A model generated the notes under the pieces. It did no database searches, was not told the DNA's origin, and worked only from the letters and a program-made list of their open reading frames with translations. 64,000 nt of DNA from Alloacidobacterium dinghuense (GTDB taxonomy: Bacteria; Acidobacteriota; Terriglobia; Terriglobales; Acidobacteriaceae), in contig NZ_CP060394.1 of the NCBI RefSeq assembly GCF_014274465.1, positions 6,076,001-6,140,000 on the forward strand. Direction: 5' to 3'. Both the position numbers and the translations under genes were made by a program. Positions 16,507-23,165 of this stretch are shown here, piece after piece. Numbering within the stretch: the stretch's first letter is position 1; every line of letters begins with the position of its first letter.

Positions 16507-17340
16507 ATGAACACGCTCGAATTTTCAGGTTGGATCTTCTGCAGTTCCATTCTGGCTGGCCTCCTCGGTGCGCTGACGGGCCTCGGCGGTGGCGTCGTCG
16601 TCGTTCCGGTGCTCACGGTTCTCTTTCACGTCGATATTCGCTATGCCATCGGCGCTTCCCTGGTGTCCGTCATCGCCACGTCGTCCGGAGCGGCCGCGGC
16701 CTATGTCCGCGAAGGCTTTTCCAACGTCCGCATCGGCATGTTCCTTGAGATCGCAACCACGCTCGGCGCGTTGGTTGGAGCCTACCTCACAGGGATCGTT
16801 TCCACTCACGCGATCGGAATTATCTTCGGAGCAGTGCTCTTCTACTCTGCATACGAATCATTGCGTACTCACCCCGACGAAACGCATCGCGAACCGAATG
16901 CCCTTGCCCTGAAGCTAAATCTGCAAGGCAGCTATCCCACCTCGCATGGACCAGAAAACTACGTAGCACAGAATGTCCCCGGAGGCTTCAGCTTGATGTT
17001 TGTCGCCGGAGCCTTGTCCGGCCTCCTCGGCATCGGCTCCGGAGCAGTCAAGGTTCTGGCCATGGATCGCGCCATGCGCCTGCCCTTCAAAGTGTCGACA
17101 ACCACCAGCAATTTCATGATCGGAGTCACAGCCGCGGCGAGCGCTGGAATTTATCTCAGTCGCGGTTACATATCGCCCGGACTCGCCATGCCGGTGATGC
17201 TGGGCGTCCTGATCGGATCGCTTGTGGGTTCACGCCTTCTTGTAAAAGCAAAGGTAAAGACGCTGCGGCTGCTCTTCGCCAGTGTCATCGTCGTGTTAGG
17301 CATCGAAATGATCTACAACAGCATGACAGGCAGGCTCTGA
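16507..17340 (+). CDS. TauE/SafE-family sulfite/sulfonate (anion) permease
   Basis: A 277-residue membrane protein with about eight helices in two homologous halves. The repeat signatures are GALTGLGGGVVVVPVL in the first half and GALSGLLGIGSGAVKV in the second, as in TauE/SafE exporters. Its stop overlaps the start of the DUF1634 gene (TGATG), so the two are translationally coupled, a common pairing. It is convergent with the sulfite reductase/siroheme operon, which makes transport of sulfite or a related sulfur anion a reasonable inference. The substrate itself is not visible in sequence. Confidence 0.85.
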   Translation: MNTLEFSGWIFCSSILAGLLGALTGLGGGVVVVPVLTVLFHVDIRYAIGASLVSVIATSSGAAAAYVREGFSNVRIGMFLEIATTLGALVGAYLTGIVSTHAIGIIFGAVLFYSAYESLRTHPDETHREPNALALKLNLQGSYPTSHGPENYVAQNVPGGFSLMFVAGALSGLLGIGSGAVKVLAMDRAMRLPFKVSTTTSNFMIGVTAAASAGIYLSRGYISPGLAMPVMLGVLIGSLVGSRLLVKAKVKTLRLLFASVIVVLGIEMIYNSMTGRL

Positions 17341-17708
17341 TGATGAACGATCAGAAAATGGAAATCGCCATCGGCCAGATCCTTCGCGCAGGAGTATTCC
17401 TTGCCGCCGCCATTGTCTTCATCGGAGGAGTCCTGTATCTAAATCAGACGCGCGGTCCTCGTCATGACTACGCTACATTTCAGGGAGAGGCGATCGCATT
17501 GCGCAGCCCGGTGGGAGTCGTGAAGCAGGCATTCAGCGGAAACAGCTACGCCATCATTCAGCTTGGTCTTCTCGTGCTGATCGCAACGCCCGTCGCCCGC
17601 GTCTTATTTGCAGCTTTCGGCTTTTTGCTCGAGAAAGACCGGCTCTACGTTGTCGTCAGTCTCCTCGTTTTTGCGGTGCTGATGTATAGCCTCGTCTTCG
17701 ATCACTGA
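17340..17708 (+). CDS. DUF1634 small membrane protein
   Basis: A 122-residue protein with three hydrophobic helices (AGVFLAAAIVFIGGVLYL, YAIIQLGLLVLIATPVARVLF, LYVVVSLLVFAVLMYSLVF). This is the layout of DUF1634 proteins, which recur directly downstream of TauE/SafE permeases. An ATG at 17340 overlaps the permease stop; a second ATG follows immediately at 17343. It is probably an accessory subunit of the permease. Its 3' end overlaps the convergent siroheme-synthase gene by seven bases. Confidence 0.8.
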   Translation: MMNDQKMEIAIGQILRAGVFLAAAIVFIGGVLYLNQTRGPRHDYATFQGEAIALRSPVGVVKQAFSGNSYAIIQLGLLVLIATPVARVLFAAFGFLLEKDRLYVVVSLLVFAVLMYSLVFDH

Positions 17709-18331
17709 TGTGCGAGCGCGTCTTTCGCCTGCAACGCCAATCTTCTTGATGGGCAATGGTCCGCGCTGCATACCGGCCGGTGGGCCAGCTCATGCAGCAG
17801 CAGCTTTCGTGATTCACCCGGCGGCAAGACAGCAAGCACTTCCCGGCGCAGTTCACCAAGATCGTCCAGCCAGGGCCCCAGATCCTCCGGCAGCTGCTCG
17901 TCAATTTCCTTGCGCAATCGCTGCGCCAGGGCCGGGCTCTCGCCTTCGGTAGAAATCGCAATCTGCAACCGCCCGCGTCTCACAACTGACGGGAAATAGA
18001 AATCGCAGTTCGGCGGATCATCCACCGCGTTGCAGAGAATATTGCGATCCACAGCATCCCTGTAGACAGCCGCATTCACTTCCAGTGAATCAGTCGCTGC
18101 CACGACGAGAAACATTCCGTCTAAGTCCGCCGCTGCGTATTCGCGCCGATGCCAGGTGAACAGGCCAACGTTGGCCGAAGCGATCAGATCGGGCTTGGCT
18201 TCGGGAGAAACGACGGTGACGTCAGCCCCCGCCGCCAGCAGACTATGGATCTTCGATTCAGCAATTTCACCCGCGCCAACCACCAGGCAGCGGCGATCCT
18301 GCAGCTTCAGAAAAATAGGAAAGAGACTCAT
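17702..18331 (-). CDS. Precorrin-2 dehydrogenase / sirohydrochlorin ferrochelatase (CysG N-terminal domain, Met8-like)
   Basis: A 209-residue protein equivalent to the N-terminal part of CysG. It oxidises precorrin-2 with NAD and inserts iron to make siroheme. The NAD-binding motif VVGAGEIAESKI is at about residues 18-29, VVAATDSLEVN near 77-87, and CNAVDDPPNCDFYFPS contains the conserved active-site Asp region. The last ~25 residues hold two Cys in CSADHC, a non-conserved extension. It overlaps the upstream sulfite/nitrite reductase by ATGA. This makes sense because that enzyme needs siroheme, so cofactor and apoenzyme are made from one message. Confidence 0.9.
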   Translation of the reverse strand: MSLFPIFLKLQDRRCLVVGAGEIAESKIHSLLAAGADVTVVSPEAKPDLIASANVGLFTWHRREYAAADLDGMFLVVAATDSLEVNAAVYRDAVDRNILCNAVDDPPNCDFYFPSVVRRGRLQIAISTEGESPALAQRLRKEIDEQLPEDLGPWLDDLGELRREVLAVLPPGESRKLLLHELAHRPVCSADHCPSRRLALQAKDALAHQ

Positions 18332-20025
18332 TCTGCAACTCCATGTGGAACTGGCGCCAGCGGCAAATCTCTCTCGACTGCCTCGATATAGTCGCCAGAT
18401 AAGCGATTGCGCAGTTCCTCTTCCGTGTGTCGTCCGAAGTAGGTCCGCAGATTATCACCCGGCTCCCGTTCTGCTAGATAAGTCCGCAACAATCGCTCCA
18501 ATGCAGCCGGAACCTCCGTAGCAGGTACGCGATAACCAACAGGACGCGCTACCGCCGCATGCCTGCCAACCGCGCCGCCCACGCAGAAATAGTAGGCATC
18601 TACCAGTTTGCCGTTGTGCTTGATCTTCTTGCCTTCAAGCCCGATATCGGCGATCCAGTGCTGTCCGCACCCGTTCGGACAGCCCGTTACATGCAGTTTC
18701 AGCTGTTCATTGAATTGCGGGACGCGTTCTTCGAGTTCGTCCACGAGCCAGCGCGCAAAACCTTTGGTCTCCGTAATCGCAAGCTTGCAGAACTCCGTGC
18801 CGGTGCAGGCAATTGCGCCGCGCCAGAAGGTCGAGCCTTCAACCCGCAAGCCAATCTTGTGAATCTCACGCGCCAGCTCTCCCGCTTCTTCAGTCGGCAC
18901 GTTAACGAAGATCAGATTCTGCATGACCGTTGTGCGCAACTCGCCTGTACCGTAGCGTTCCGCAAGCTCCGCGGCTGCCGCCAACTGATCGCCCGTGAGC
19001 CGTCCGCGCAGCACCGATGCGCCCACATAGCTGAATCCACGCTGCCTTTGCCGATGAATGCCCACGTGATCGCGCAGAATGTCTTCCGGTGCATGCTCGT
19101 CAACGCCCCGATCAAGCCTGTACCCAAGACGTGATTCCAACTCGCGCAGAAAACTCTCCGCCGTCCATCCCTCACGCATGAAGAGATACTTCAGCCGCGC
19201 CCGATCCCGGCTCTCGCGCAATCCTTGCTGATCGCGGAAAATCTCCGTCACTCTTCGTGCCACATCCAGCGCTTGTTCCGGCTTGATAAACGCGTCGAGC
19301 CTTATCGCCAGATGCGGTTCATTGGAAAGGCCACCACCCACGCGCAGCGAATACCCAACCTCGTTGCCGCGACGAACTCCTGTCAGCGCAACGTCATTAA
19401 TTTCAGGATAGTTGCACCACACCGAGCAGCCGGAAACGGACATCTTGAACTTGCGCGGCAGATTATAAAACTCAGGATTTGCCGTGAGTTGATGCGCAAC
19501 TTCTACCGCGAGTGGGGAAGCATCCAGAATCTCATCGTGCGCAATTCCCGCCAGCGGGCAGCCGGTAACATTACGCACCACGTCACCGCAAGCGCCCTTT
19601 GGTGAAAGCCCGACCACAGTCAGCTGGTCCACAATTTCCGGCAGCGATTCAATCGTCAGCCAATGCAGTTGAATATTCTGCCGGACAGTGATATCGGCCA
19701 GGTTCCGCGCATGCTTTTTCGTAATGTCGGCAATTACGCGCAGTTGATCGGAACGCAGAATCCCGTTCGGAATGCCGACGCGCATCATGAAGTACTCGGT
19801 GGCCAGACCTTCGCCGCCTTTGCCGCCCACGGCGCCCACGCCATCGCCCTGCGTGTACACGCCCCACCACTTGAAGTAGGCTGAAGCCCACTCCGGCACC
19901 ACGCTCGCCCGTCCCTGGCGGGCAAACTCGCGCACTTCGTTGAACGCCTCCCACGGATTCTTCTCGCGCTTCAGGCGTTCTATCTTCTGTGCTTTGGTTT
20001 CTTTTGGTGCAGCAGTGTCGGTCAT
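18328..20025 (-). CDS. Ferredoxin-type sulfite/nitrite reductase (siroheme and 4Fe-4S)
   Basis: A 565-residue hemoprotein that performs a six-electron reduction of sulfite to sulfide or nitrite to ammonia. Two nitrite/sulfite-reductase ferredoxin-like half domains and two siroheme/4Fe-4S domains alternate. The cluster and siroheme ligands are C407-x5-C413 (ACTGTEFC) and C449-x3-C453 (TGCPNGCG). An NVTGCP motif is near residue 152 and a VSGCSVWCNYPEIN segment near 198. Sequence alone does not separate the two activities. The Cys-rich leader peptide upstream, the siroheme synthase downstream and the convergent TauE permease favour assimilatory sulfite reduction for cysteine synthesis. Confidence 0.9.
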   Translation of the reverse strand: MTDTAAPKETKAQKIERLKREKNPWEAFNEVREFARQGRASVVPEWASAYFKWWGVYTQGDGVGAVGGKGGEGLATEYFMMRVGIPNGILRSDQLRVIADITKKHARNLADITVRQNIQLHWLTIESLPEIVDQLTVVGLSPKGACGDVVRNVTGCPLAGIAHDEILDASPLAVEVAHQLTANPEFYNLPRKFKMSVSGCSVWCNYPEINDVALTGVRRGNEVGYSLRVGGGLSNEPHLAIRLDAFIKPEQALDVARRVTEIFRDQQGLRESRDRARLKYLFMREGWTAESFLRELESRLGYRLDRGVDEHAPEDILRDHVGIHRQRQRGFSYVGASVLRGRLTGDQLAAAAELAERYGTGELRTTVMQNLIFVNVPTEEAGELAREIHKIGLRVEGSTFWRGAIACTGTEFCKLAITETKGFARWLVDELEERVPQFNEQLKLHVTGCPNGCGQHWIADIGLEGKKIKHNGKLVDAYYFCVGGAVGRHAAVARPVGYRVPATEVPAALERLLRTYLAEREPGDNLRTYFGRHTEEELRNRLSGDYIEAVERDLPLAPVPHGVAE

Positions 20026-20045
20026 CGCGTTTCCCTGTTCTGGAG

Positions 20046-20088
20046 AAATAAAAAACCCGCGTCAGTCTGAGCTGATACGCGGGCTTTA
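20046..20088 (-). terminator. Intrinsic terminator and overlapping antiterminator arm in the sulfite-reductase leader
   Basis: On the minus strand CCCGCGT (20077-20083) pairs with ACGCGGG (20056-20062), and TTTTTTATTT follows (20046-20055), 20 bases before the reductase start. The segment TAAAGCCCG (20080-20088) overlaps the 5' stem. It can instead pair with CGGACTTTG (20130-20138) in the last codons of the leader ORF, eight pairs including one G-U plus one A-C mismatch. The two structures exclude each other. That is the design of a transcription attenuator rather than a plain terminator of the receptor gene upstream. Confidence 0.72.
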
Positions 20089-20120
20089 TGTGAAACCTGA
20101 AACTTAGCTGTTAGCTGAGG

Positions 20121-20192
20121 TCATTCACTCAAAGTCCGGCGCACGCAGATACAACATCCGCAACAGAGCACCGGAATAGTCGAGTGAGACAT
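20121..20192 (-). CDS. Polycysteine leader peptide (23 aa) of the sulfite-reductase operon
   Basis: A 23-codon ORF from ATG at 20192 to TGA at 20121. Its centre reads LCCGCCIC, placing five Cys in seven codons (residues 10, 11, 13, 14, 16). A candidate promoter predicts transcription starting at the A of the ATG, so it is likely leaderless. It lies between the receptor gene and the terminator ahead of sulfite reductase. Scarce Cys-tRNA would stall the ribosome on the Cys run, leaving the last codons free to form the antiterminator. Polycysteine leaderless ORFs that attenuate sulfur operons are known in mycobacteria; a case here is inference from sequence. Confidence 0.72.
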   Translation of the reverse strand: MSHSTIPVLCCGCCICVRRTLSE

Positions 20193-20198
20193 AGATAA

Positions 20199-20227
20199 AG
20201 GGTAGCGGTTTGGCAGAGCCGAGTCAA
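20199..20227 (-). promoter_or_regulatory. Candidate promoter of the cysteine leader / sulfite-reductase operon
   Basis: TTGACT (20222-20227) and TACCCT (20199-20204) are separated by exactly 17 bases. The seventh base after the -10 is the A of the leader ATG. The -35 matches consensus at 5 of 6 positions, the -10 at only 3 of 6. Confidence 0.5.
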
Positions 20228-20252
20228 GAAGAGACTGCCTCTGCCGCCATAT

Positions 20253-23165
20253 TTAGAAGTTGAAGGCAGCTTCCAGAAAGATGCTGCGGTTGCCTGCCGT
20301 CGGCGGCCCAAAGAAGCCTCCCGCCAGCGATTGTGATTTATCAAAGAAGGGCGACAACAGCGTGCCGTTCGGTGTGCCAAGATTCTGATGGTTCAGGATG
20401 TTAGCTCCGAAAGCCGTCAGCGTCAGGTTGTACTTGCGCGACACCGAAGCGTCCAGCCTTCCCGGACCACCCGTATTGCCGCTCAAGCCCGAAAAGCCAC
20501 GTCCACGTCCACCGCCGCCGCCACCCGGGCCGCCGCCACCTGGCCCGGGCCCCTCAATCTTCGGCCCAAGGCCAATCACCTTGGCAACACGCATATTCAG
20601 ATTGATATTCGACGGTCCTGTGCCATATCCATAAGGAACAATCCGCTCATTCGTCCCAAGCGGATTTGTATTCAGGCAGCCGAACCGCGTCTCCACAACT
20701 CCCGCCTCGCTGCAACTCGCCGCAAATGTGGGACGCGCATTGAACTGGTTGTTCGCCGTCAGATCATTGCCGATCGTCAGGTTATACGGCGTTCCAGAGT
20801 TATACCCGAGGAACGGTGAGAACGACAGCGCCCACGGAGCCTGGAAATTTCCTAGAATGATGAACCGGTTGTGTATGTCAAAGGCCGAGCGCCCATAATC
20901 GAGCTTCGGATCGTGCGCGTTCGAAAGAAATGAGTTTACCCCGCCCGTGTTGCTGCGCGCATTGTTGTACACATAGAACCCGAAAAAGCTGAGCCGCCGG
21001 AAGCGCGCCCTGCCGCTGGCAATCAACTGGCTCTGCCGGTAAAAACCGCCCGATTGATACGTGTACAGGTTCTCGCTCGGCGGTGCCAGATTCACAGCGT
21101 CCGCATACGTCCCGCTGGACGCGTCCCAGAACGGAGCGCTAATGTTGTTTGTCCAATATTGGTGTACCCCTTGGCTGTAAAGATAGGTCACGTTGGCAGT
21201 CGCATTTTTCGTAATCTGCCGATCGAGGCCGATGGCGCCTTGCATATCCACAGCAGCGCGGAAATGCGAGTCGATCTGGTAGTACGTCGGCGCAGGATTC
21301 GTATTAGGCTGGTTCGAATCAAACGACTGAATCACAATCTGCTGGTTCGAGACCCCGCCATTGACCGGCACATTGTGATGAATCGTATAGATCACAAAAG
21401 GCGTGCTGCCGCCGCCACCAAAGCTATTCGCGACACCCCAGCGCTGATAGAACCATCCGTAACCCGCGCGCAGCACCGTCTTGGCTGGCTTCTTACCACC
21501 GCCGTCGAGCGCGTATGCAAACGAGAGCCGTGGAGCCCAGCTATTGATGTCGTGGATATAGTTCTGCGCCTCCCAACGTAGCCCGTAGCTCAGCGTAAAG
21601 CGCGGATTGATCTTCCAGTCATCCTGATAAAACAGGCCGGAATCAAACAGCGTGGCGCGCGCCGTGTACGCGTTGTTGTTCACCACCGTGTATTGAAACC
21701 TCTGTGGCTGGTTGTTCAAGTAGTCCGTAAGCGACTGGTAGGTGTACAGTCCGTTCGTTCCCGCGTTGGTATAGTTGGCGTCGCGCGTAGCCCGCAATCT
21801 CGCGCCAAAGTTCAGCGAGTGCGCTCCTTCAGCCGCCGTGAAGTAATCCTGCAATTCGAAATAGTCCTGGTTATCGCGCAGCGTCCCGTTATTACTACCG
21901 CCCGAAGTAAAGGCTCCCTGCACAGAAATCGTCGGATCAGTCGAAAGCGGGGTCTGCTGTGCCCGCGTGCGCGTGTACTCAAAGCGCATATCGTTCACGA
22001 CCCTAGGACTCATCACCCAGCTGTTGCTGATCTGAATTTCATTTTCGATATTGTGCGTGTTGTATCCAACCGTCGGCAGGCTGGTCGTCCCGATACCCGC
22101 GTTTGACTGTGTGTTGCGCGTAAAGTCGTAGCGAACCGTCAAGGTGTCCGCCTGGCCCAACTGGATGTCAAAGCGCGGTGCAATATCAATGCGGGTGCTC
22201 GGATTACTAACGGTGGTATTCAAATACTGAGGATTATTCGGATCAGTCGTCGTCGCTGGATTCACTGCATCCACCACGCTCACGTTCTGAATATTGCGCC
22301 CAAAGGCATTCAGGAAAAACGAGGTGTTCTTTGTGAGCGATGCGCCGATATTCCCGTTCAGAAAATAAGTGTAGTAATCCGGAAACGGAATCTTCGGCTG
22401 TCCCGGCTGCAGGTTCGAATTCAGAATTGGGTTCGCCGCGTTAAAGGCCGAAGTCGTCCCGCGCACATTGATGCTTCCATGCAGTTTGTCCGTACCAGGC
22501 TTGGTCAGAATTTCAATGCGCCCATAGCCGAGCCGGTCATACTGCGCAGAAAACGGATTCTGGTTCACGCGAATTTCGCGGATCGACGACTTTGGTGGAA
22601 GCTGCCCGCCGGTAAATCCATCGATATAAATCTGACCGCCATTTGGTCCCGCCGAAGGCCCGGCCAGCGCCTGCAACTCATTCTGCAGTTCATCGGGATC
22701 GTCTGACAGCGCATCCAAATCCTTGCCTTTCAGCACAACCGCATTGGCGTTGCTGTCCGGGCTTGTATCGACCGTCGTGCTCTCGGCCTGCACCTGCACC
22801 TGCTGCTGCTCAACTGCGATCGCCAGCGGCACGTCGAACTGCTTCGTCTGTCCTGCGCCAACCGAGATAGCTTTCGAATTCGACGAAGCAAAGCCCTGCG
22901 CATTCGCGATGACGATATACGTGCCCGGTGTCAGATTGTTGACCTGATACGTGCCGCCCGCATTCGACGTCACCGTGGCAACGGTGTGACCATCCGGCGT
23001 CGTCAGGCTTACATTCGCATTTGGAATCACTGCGCCCGATGGGTCAGTCACCTGTCCGCGCACAGAACCTTTCGCCGCCTGCGCCAATAACCGGCTCGCG
23101 GAAGCAAGACTCAACAGCAGAACCAGCAAGATAGAAAAATAGCGTATTAGAACTCTTTGCTTCAC
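20253..23165 (-). CDS. TonB-dependent receptor, Oar-like, carboxypeptidase-regulatory N-terminus
   Basis: A 970-residue outer-membrane protein. A signal peptide (FSILLVLLLSLASASRLLA) precedes a carboxypeptidase-regulatory-like beta-sandwich (GSVRGQVTDPSGAVIPNANV, residues ~33-115). A plug-like region (~130-260, with GQIYIDGFTGGQLPPKSSI) and a long beta-barrel follow, ending in the aromatic-terminal AAFNF. A glycine-rich insert (GPGGGGPGGGGGGRGRG) sits near residue 875, where most relatives have a short turn. Such receptors import large nutrients in Acidobacteriota. The substrate is unknown. It is 41 bases downstream of the DUF5666 gene, probably in one operon. Confidence 0.9.
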   Translation of the reverse strand: MKQRVLIRYFSILLVLLLSLASASRLLAQAAKGSVRGQVTDPSGAVIPNANVSLTTPDGHTVATVTSNAGGTYQVNNLTPGTYIVIANAQGFASSNSKAISVGAGQTKQFDVPLAIAVEQQQVQVQAESTTVDTSPDSNANAVVLKGKDLDALSDDPDELQNELQALAGPSAGPNGGQIYIDGFTGGQLPPKSSIREIRVNQNPFSAQYDRLGYGRIEILTKPGTDKLHGSINVRGTTSAFNAANPILNSNLQPGQPKIPFPDYYTYFLNGNIGASLTKNTSFFLNAFGRNIQNVSVVDAVNPATTTDPNNPQYLNTTVSNPSTRIDIAPRFDIQLGQADTLTVRYDFTRNTQSNAGIGTTSLPTVGYNTHNIENEIQISNSWVMSPRVVNDMRFEYTRTRAQQTPLSTDPTISVQGAFTSGGSNNGTLRDNQDYFELQDYFTAAEGAHSLNFGARLRATRDANYTNAGTNGLYTYQSLTDYLNNQPQRFQYTVVNNNAYTARATLFDSGLFYQDDWKINPRFTLSYGLRWEAQNYIHDINSWAPRLSFAYALDGGGKKPAKTVLRAGYGWFYQRWGVANSFGGGGSTPFVIYTIHHNVPVNGGVSNQQIVIQSFDSNQPNTNPAPTYYQIDSHFRAAVDMQGAIGLDRQITKNATANVTYLYSQGVHQYWTNNISAPFWDASSGTYADAVNLAPPSENLYTYQSGGFYRQSQLIASGRARFRRLSFFGFYVYNNARSNTGGVNSFLSNAHDPKLDYGRSAFDIHNRFIILGNFQAPWALSFSPFLGYNSGTPYNLTIGNDLTANNQFNARPTFAASCSEAGVVETRFGCLNTNPLGTNERIVPYGYGTGPSNINLNMRVAKVIGLGPKIEGPGPGGGGPGGGGGGRGRGFSGLSGNTGGPGRLDASVSRKYNLTLTAFGANILNHQNLGTPNGTLLSPFFDKSQSLAGGFFGPPTAGNRSIFLEAAFNF

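Follow-up and report, generated by a model that had tools for sequence, protein, structure and literature searches.

In Escherichia coli attenuators of the trp type, such as trpL and hisL, a leader ORF with sensor codons is followed by alternative 1:2, 2:3, and 3:4 hairpins and by an intrinsic terminator before the structural gene. Leaders built on cysteine codons have been described in several other bacteria, and the following statements on them reflect extracts of the papers cited. In mycobacteria, leaderless polycysteine short ORFs act as Cys-responsive translation attenuators (Canestrari et al. 2020, as reported in PMC9031893, PMC9094748, and PMC13236596). The element uORFC-8-2, located before cysS in Rhodobacterales, consists of a predicted Cys-codon uORF and a U-run terminator, and ribosome-mediated attenuation has been proposed for it (PMC8632094). 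Additionally, candidate Cys leaders before cys operons or cbs have been listed for Mycobacterium, Propionibacterium acnes, and Bifidobacterium longum (PMC1262725). Among the matches listed in our literature search, judged by titles and abstract openings, none reported a Cys attenuator in Acidobacteria; most subscription journals lie outside the literature covered.

The window analyzed in this study is a 64,000-nt stretch of the 6.27-Mb single-contig genome of the soil acidobacterium Alloacidobacterium dinghuense, whose nearest named relatives belong to the Acidobacteriaceae (Occallatibacter, Terracidiphilus, Granulicella, Edaphobacter, and Silvibacterium, plus MAGs). A leader, a terminator, and the sir operon were all found on the minus strand, with the following features.

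20222-20227, minus strand: -35 element TTGACT; TTGAC with a -10-like hexamer is frequent in the leaders of relatives
20199-20204, minus strand: -10 element TACCCT, separated from the -35 element by a 17-nt spacer and followed by six bases and the ATG at 20192
20121-20192, minus strand: leader ORF MSHSTIPVLCCGCCICVRRTLSE followed by a stop, 23 codons, probably leaderless, with Cys codons 10, 11, 13, 14, and 16
20125-20187, minus strand: 1:2 (anti-antiterminator) hairpin enclosing the Cys codons, with outer CACTC/GAGTG and inner CCGG/CCGG stems
20118-20148, minus strand: region 2, the antiterminator 5' strand, comprising codons ~16-23, the stop, and the first spacer bases
20072-20098, minus strand: region 3, the antiterminator 3' strand, including the terminator 5' arm
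20046-20087, minus strand: intrinsic terminator stem-loop and U-run (3:4), with the stem at about 20087-20053 and the U-run reaching 20046
18328-20025, minus strand: NirA/Sir-family siroheme Fe-S reductase gene (sir), the putatively regulated gene, with its ATG at 20025 and a product of 565 aa
17702-18331, minus strand: precorrin-2 dehydrogenase / CysG N-terminal-type siroheme synthase gene, by domain matches

The architecture of this region, its conservation, the competing pairings, and the co-variation of the antiterminator were established by computation, and we consider the sir leader to be, with a probability of roughly 0.88, a ribosome-mediated, Cys-responsive transcription attenuator of the trp type. 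It resembles the E. coli systems in its sensor-codon leader ORF, its 1:2, 2:3, and 3:4 hairpins, and the terminator before the gene. Unlike them, it would sense Cys, lacks a Shine-Dalgarno (SD) sequence, and has its ORF at the predicted +1; in contrast to the trp layout, region 2 lies mainly inside the last codons of the leader. With the mycobacterial ORFs, as the extracts describe them, it shares a short ORF with a (here predicted) leaderless start, contiguous Cys codons, and a position upstream of cysteine or sulfur genes; its intrinsic terminator and co-varying antiterminator set it apart from mycobacterial translation attenuation. The first stem holds the Cys codons and a U-run terminator is present, as in the published extract on uORFC-8-2, but that element has two tandem Cys codons, usually 14-15, and belongs to cysS in alphaproteobacteria, whereas the gene here is sir. 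The actinobacterial candidates, as given in PMC1262725, are short Cys-run ORFs like the sir leader, but they come without conserved terminator hairpins and Rho is weakly suggested. Control of this kind is already known; as far as the literature searched goes, the combination of a leaderless start, a trp-type switch, the host phylum, and the target set is new.

Every NCBIfam model match of the reductase (18328-20025) was below its curated cut-off. The enzyme is probably a sulfite reductase, based on its family, the siroheme partner gene, and the Cys signal; going by domain content alone, the 565-aa protein may be a nitrite reductase. The end of sir and the precorrin-2 dehydrogenase gene overlap by 4 nt, and the siroheme synthase gene (17702..18331) presumably forms one operon with sir. 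A gene encoding a TauE/SafE permease and a small ORF (window 16507-17708, plus strand) converge on the sir operon, and a second TauE gene closes the cysD operon elsewhere in the genome.

The initial annotation had proposed a TTGACT-N17-TACCCT promoter predicting a start at the A of the leader ATG, a 23-codon ORF containing CCGCCIC, a terminator with a U-run just before the reductase, and a pairing of the terminator 5' arm with leader codons 19-21. The promoter elements (20227-20199, ATG at 20192) and the ORF (20192-20121, minus strand) were found as described, with the A of the ATG being the 7th base after TACCCT and the Cys codons of MSHSTIPVLCCGCCICVRRTLSE arranged as CC-G-CC-I-C. The terminator is likewise present (stem at about 20087-20053, U-run ending 20 bases before the sir ATG), and the proposed pairing of its 5' arm is real and part of a longer predicted helix that includes approximately codons 16-23 and the spacer. 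The folding energy of the terminator stem was -16.5 or -18.7 kcal/mol, depending on which of two stem boundaries was applied, and a 33-nt spacer separates it from the leader stop. The RNA from the ATG to the U-run folded at -54.6 kcal/mol (z -4.3), and none of 200 shuffled sequences was as stable. The window contained 15 small ORFs with at least three Cys in seven codons, and the sir leader was the only one that combined a terminator with TTGAC at the promoter position. A generic consensus scan of the window for promoters and terminators reported neither element; according to our reading of the scanner rules, the promoter was missed because TACCCT shares only 3 of 6 bases with TATAAT, and the terminator because a bulge interrupts the stem.

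Conservation of the leader was analyzed by a reductase search of 150 genomes of the family, which yielded 100 sir upstream regions from 96 genomes among the matches listed (102 regions minus two distant paralogues). An ATG-initiated ORF of at most 45 codons within 330 nt and with at least three Cys in seven codons was found in 81 of these 100 regions, again among the matches listed; 63 regions had at least four Cys and 35 at least five. The corresponding frequencies were 2.6%, 0.3%, and 0% in dinucleotide shuffles (20 per region) and 1, 0, and 0 of 100 on the opposite strand. In a second set of named sir loci, drawn partly from the same genomes, 65 of 80 had a Cys-rich ORF when GTG starts and 360 nt were allowed. 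A terminator between leader and sir was accepted in 88 of the 100 regions among the matches listed. These 88 leaders remained after five regions without a candidate (L028, L089, L091, L099, and L100) and seven picks that were wrong or had no acceptable terminator (L020, L033, L036, L039, L045, L062, and L077) had been set aside, and they include one (L031) whose hairpin is probably wrong. By eye, L089 has kept the promoter and terminator with a leader ORF of a single Cys codon, possibly a decayed sensor.

Outside the family, the leader was absent from the sir loci of Rokubacteria (L215, L216, L217, L219, and L220) and Methylomirabilota (L206), whose reductases are 60-62% identical to that of the window, and from L218, labelled Acidobacteria, with a reductase of 62% identity. 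The leader seems to follow the acidobacterial family and not the enzyme, and in the Methylomirabilota and Rokubacteria the enzyme was perhaps transferred without its control. Two contigs labelled Opitutia and Verrucomicrobia (L155 and L181), possibly misassigned bins, carry an acidobacterial-type sir; one of them has a Cys-rich ORF and the other a TTGAC-promoted two-Cys ORF. Among 20 upstream regions of divergent reductases (31-43% identity) in other acidobacterial families, 16 had nothing at a threshold of at least two Cys and four had Cys-containing ORFs, one of them with TTGAC (L266). In addition, the distant reductase paralogue in the genome of A. dinghuense (L079) lacked the leader.

TTGAC with a -10-like hexamer at 16-18 nt was identified in 67 of the 88 leaders with an accepted terminator, and the gap between hexamer and start codon was 6-7 nt in 50 of the 88. 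TTGAC was present at positions -42 to -30 relative to the start in 65 of 88 leaders and for 3 of the 601 remaining ATGs of these regions; the comparison favours the leaders because their start codons were picked partly by promoter score. SD-like strings occurred in 3 leaders and were lacking in 85 of 88. These results fit a leaderless start of the ORF, which we regard as likely from the promoter position and the missing SD. In one subset of leaders (group B, defined below), the gap between the -10 element and the start codon was often 8-14 nt, and a few untranslated 5' bases are possible there. According to Table 2 of PMC3160421, leaderless genes average 13.3% in three Acidobacteria genomes.

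The window RNA was folded with a ribosome whose A-site occupied a given codon and with 9 nt beyond it masked. The naked RNA formed the 1:2 hairpin and the terminator. An A-site on codon 10 or 11 gave the antiterminator, in which codons 18-20 were the partner of the terminator 5' arm, and the terminator formed again once the A-site had reached codon 20, 23, or the stop (24). At codons 13, 14, or 16, the completed RNA kept the terminator and lost its outer pairs. Before the 3' arm was made, an A-site on codon 13 gave the antiterminator and one on codon 16 only its outer part.

The same folding before synthesis of the 3' arm was applied to all 88 leaders. The mean probability that the 5' arm was held upstream was 0.68 at the Cys stall; it was 0.23 with the ribosome at the stop, 0.45 for the RNA free of ribosomes, and 0.52 when the spacer was shuffled at the Cys stall (Wilcoxon p 2e-11 vs the shuffled spacer and 4e-15 vs the stop). 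A probability above 0.5 was reached at the Cys stall by 75 of the 88 leaders and at the stop by 2; with shuffled spacers, the mean was above 0.5 for 50 of the 88. At equilibrium, a terminator probability below 0.3 under the Cys stall together with one above 0.7 at the stop was obtained for the completed RNA of only 6 of 88 leaders; the window leader is one of them (0.81 free, 0.27 stalled, and 0.82 at the stop). Since so few leaders switch at equilibrium, the device must act during transcription, that is kinetically, in most relatives.

From these features we infer the transcription start, the ribosome stalling, and the sign of the response. RNA polymerase would start at the leader ATG, followed by a ribosome translating the 23-codon ORF. 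With ample charged tRNA-Cys, this ribosome would reach the stop and cover region 2, allowing the terminator to form before sir. When charged tRNA-Cys is scarce, stalling at codons 10-11 would leave region 2 free to pair with region 3, and this 2:3 pairing would let the polymerase continue into both sir and the siroheme gene. Without translation of the leader, the 1:2 hairpin would hold region 2 and the terminator would form.

The 2:3 pairing was evaluated by an exchange-of-partner test, in which the energy of the region 2:region 3 duplex is compared between native partners and partners swapped between species. Across the 88 leaders, the native duplexes averaged -22.9 kcal/mol and the exchanged ones -18.9 kcal/mol, a difference reached in 0 of 5,000 permutations in one run and in 0 of 10,000 in another. 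The same count of 0 of 10,000 was obtained for group A (CCGG/CCCGC type, n = 18, z -6.1), for group B (CTGG/CCAG type, n = 29, z -4.1), in which many peptides end in SSGAGRLLT or similar, and for the remaining leaders (n = 41, z -7.2); the leaders are related and not independent, so these permutation counts are not strict probabilities. The signal extended to the flanks outside the shared cores, with -10.7 vs -6.6 +- 0.8 in 13 group-A leaders (0 of 10,000) and 67 of 116 possible pairs outside CTGG/CCAG vs 55.9 +- 4.4 in the 29 group-B leaders (p about 0.01). When region 3 was slid by +12 nt, the duplex was nearly as stable (-22.3 vs -22.9), because region 2 resembles the terminator sequence that the slid segment overlaps.

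A plain MAFFT alignment of 13 leaders gave 66.7% paired cells vs 59.8% (1/500), 3 double-change pairs vs 2.4 (203/500), and covariation scores near the native one for slides of -2 and +1. Such column counts are too blunt because of the indels in the leaders, and the exchange-of-partner test was used instead. The CCGG/CCGG stem of the 1:2 hairpin was invariant in 13 of 13 aligned relatives and so carries no co-variation evidence; the 1:2 core and the terminator core hardly vary in this alignment, which speaks neither for nor against either stem.

The initial annotation had read the locus as a Cys-sensing attenuator acting on sir and the siroheme gene of an acidobacterium, by analogy with mycobacteria, and had suggested checking the Cys run and the stems in relatives. 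This comparison, with its 81 of 100 regions and its co-varying 2:3 pairing, did not refute the proposal, and a Cys-sensing attenuator remains the best reading. The terminator logic differs from the mycobacterial analogy, since the mycobacterial case is described as translation attenuation. A device working entirely in the mycobacterial manner, with the leaderless polycysteine ORF acting on translation or on Rho-dependent termination beside an incidental terminator, is the strongest competitor. The extracts on Mycobacterium smegmatis, in which leaderless Cys-run ORFs are attenuators of downstream translation (PMC9031893 and PMC13236596), and on actinobacterial Cys leaders that lack conserved terminator hairpins and for which Rho was suggested (PMC1262725), give it some precedent. 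We nevertheless consider it unlikely, given the intrinsic terminators in 88 of 100 regions among the matches listed, the co-variation of the terminator 5' arm with the last codons of the leader, and an SD-like AGGG of sir (20036-20033, minus strand) that lies outside the hairpins in the window.

A trp-type attenuator depends on Cys codons and RNA pairing, and a second alternative assigns the function to the peptide, as a metal, thiol, or Fe-S sensor or as an arrest peptide. The Cys residues are the conserved feature of these leaders (eight contiguous Cys codons are found in the relative L032), and CCxCC-like motifs could bind metal. Outside the Cys run, however, the peptides vary. Across the genus, region 2 is nearly the same at the nucleotide level but is translated in differing frames (RTLSE in the window, AGLLSE in L003, and FAGL in L004), indicating that the RNA is kept and the peptide is not. 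The choice of Cys codons is also shifted, with 320 UGU and 160 UGC in the leaders vs 77 and 775 (91% UGC) in the sir genes of 80 named loci, including non-acidobacterial ones. Such a bias would be expected for a stall site and not for an ordinary coding stretch. Together, these observations make a functional peptide very unlikely, and we predict that the sensor of the attenuator includes the UGU-biased Cys codons.

Leaders of the same design were also found elsewhere in the genome of A. dinghuense, as a divergent pair between cysD and an outer-membrane gene (L221). The leader MASTLCTFACRIECRCCCSISACRRGCKRCR, with TTGAC and a terminator, precedes a PAPS_reduct - GTPase - PAPS_reduct - TauE gene series, of which we read the first three, from Pfam matches and gene order, as probably CysD-, CysN-, and CysH-like. 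The leader MIRVWHIANCCCASNCCAGMCMHVN, also with TTGAC and a terminator, precedes the gene of a 1060-aa OMP_b-brl_4/CarboxypepD_reg protein.

L221:7232-10414, plus strand: outer-membrane gene, with its leader at about L221:6952-7029 (plus strand)

The cysD and outer-membrane leaders recurred in two more genomes from the genus, G070 (L108 and L272) and G119 (L109 and L271). In folding before the 3' arm was made, the terminator 5' arm of both leaders was paired upstream at the Cys stall and became free when the ribosome was at the stop. Once the RNA was complete, every ribosome position folded gave the terminator. Neither L282, which is the paralogue of the outer-membrane gene in A. dinghuense, nor any of the more remote homologues that were scanned was found to have such a leader. 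Judging from this architecture, a Cys attenuator quite probably controls the outer-membrane gene, and the arrangement suggests that the barrel protein is a receptor for a sulfur compound.

These divergent leaders also bear on a third explanation, according to which the gene directly upstream has the leader and terminator as its 3' end and sir has a separate promoter. That gene (20253-23165, minus strand, OMP_b-brl_4/CarboxypepD_reg) has the orientation of sir, and its end lies ~60 nt upstream of the leader ORF. Even so, the conserved promoter lies upstream of the leader, and a similar layout precedes the divergent cysD and outer-membrane genes. The distance from the U-run to the sir ATG is 20 nt in the window, and the median distance from the terminator stem end to the start of the sir match is 42 nt in the 88 leaders, which leaves little room for another promoter. 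Taken together, the 3'-end explanation is highly improbable. By eye, a C-terminus resembling that of the upstream gene occurs at the corresponding position in some relatives (e.g., L002, L019, and L029), and the gene has no Cys leader of its own within the window. Control of sir by a metabolite riboswitch or a T-box, which might be suspected from the length and structure of the 5' region of this sulfur gene, has a negligible probability, as what is conserved is the Cys-codon run and an Rfam search of 19500-20700 gave no family at gathering score (three hits with E up to 5, mir-289, Leu_leader, and terC, were far below).

The trp-type attenuator was also sought at other genes of cysteine metabolism. 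For cysK, none of the 10 PALP-family loci in the genome had a Cys ORF together with a promoter or terminator upstream on the gene strand. For cysS, a Cys ORF was found on the gene strand at none of 21 loci from the window genome and relatives, of which one or more are truncated by the end of a contig. The genome had no PF06426 match for serine acetyltransferase, and six weak, partial matches in relatives included one Cys ORF (L309) without promoter or terminator.

A survey of PAPS_reduct genes covered 56 loci from relatives and a sample of the phylum, using 900 nt upstream and requiring neither promoter nor terminator. An ORF with at least three Cys in seven codons was present at 19 of 56 loci on the gene strand vs 5 of 56 on the opposite strand (loci clipped by contig ends included), and three of the five opposite-strand matches are the divergent outer-membrane leader. 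Of the 19 matches, 7 belong to the family of the window, 6 to the other family of its order, and 6 to other families (f8, f10, f12, f17, f19, and f25); both TTGAC and a terminator were found in 3 of these last 6 leaders (L223, L237, and L238). These data are suggestive of Cys leaders at PAPS_reduct genes outside the order of the window. Other acidobacterial families also have long Cys runs before a gene of the PAPS-reductase family or before a divergent reductase (L226 and L266), with seven Cys in a row in L226.

In the sir leader, a leaderless polycysteine ORF would be combined with a trp-type terminator switch, each of which is known on its own, and such a device offers a direct way to test how a leaderless ribosome is coupled to RNA polymerase. 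Control of sulfate assimilation and an outer-membrane barrel protein by one amino-acid signal would be unexpected. We see an even chance that assimilatory sulfur metabolism is controlled throughout the Acidobacteriota by leaderless Cys-codon attenuators that have been built anew several times from unrelated sequences, at sir, at cysD-cysN-cysH, and even at an outer-membrane receptor. If so, uptake, sulfate reduction, and siroheme supply would follow a single signal, charged tRNA-Cys.
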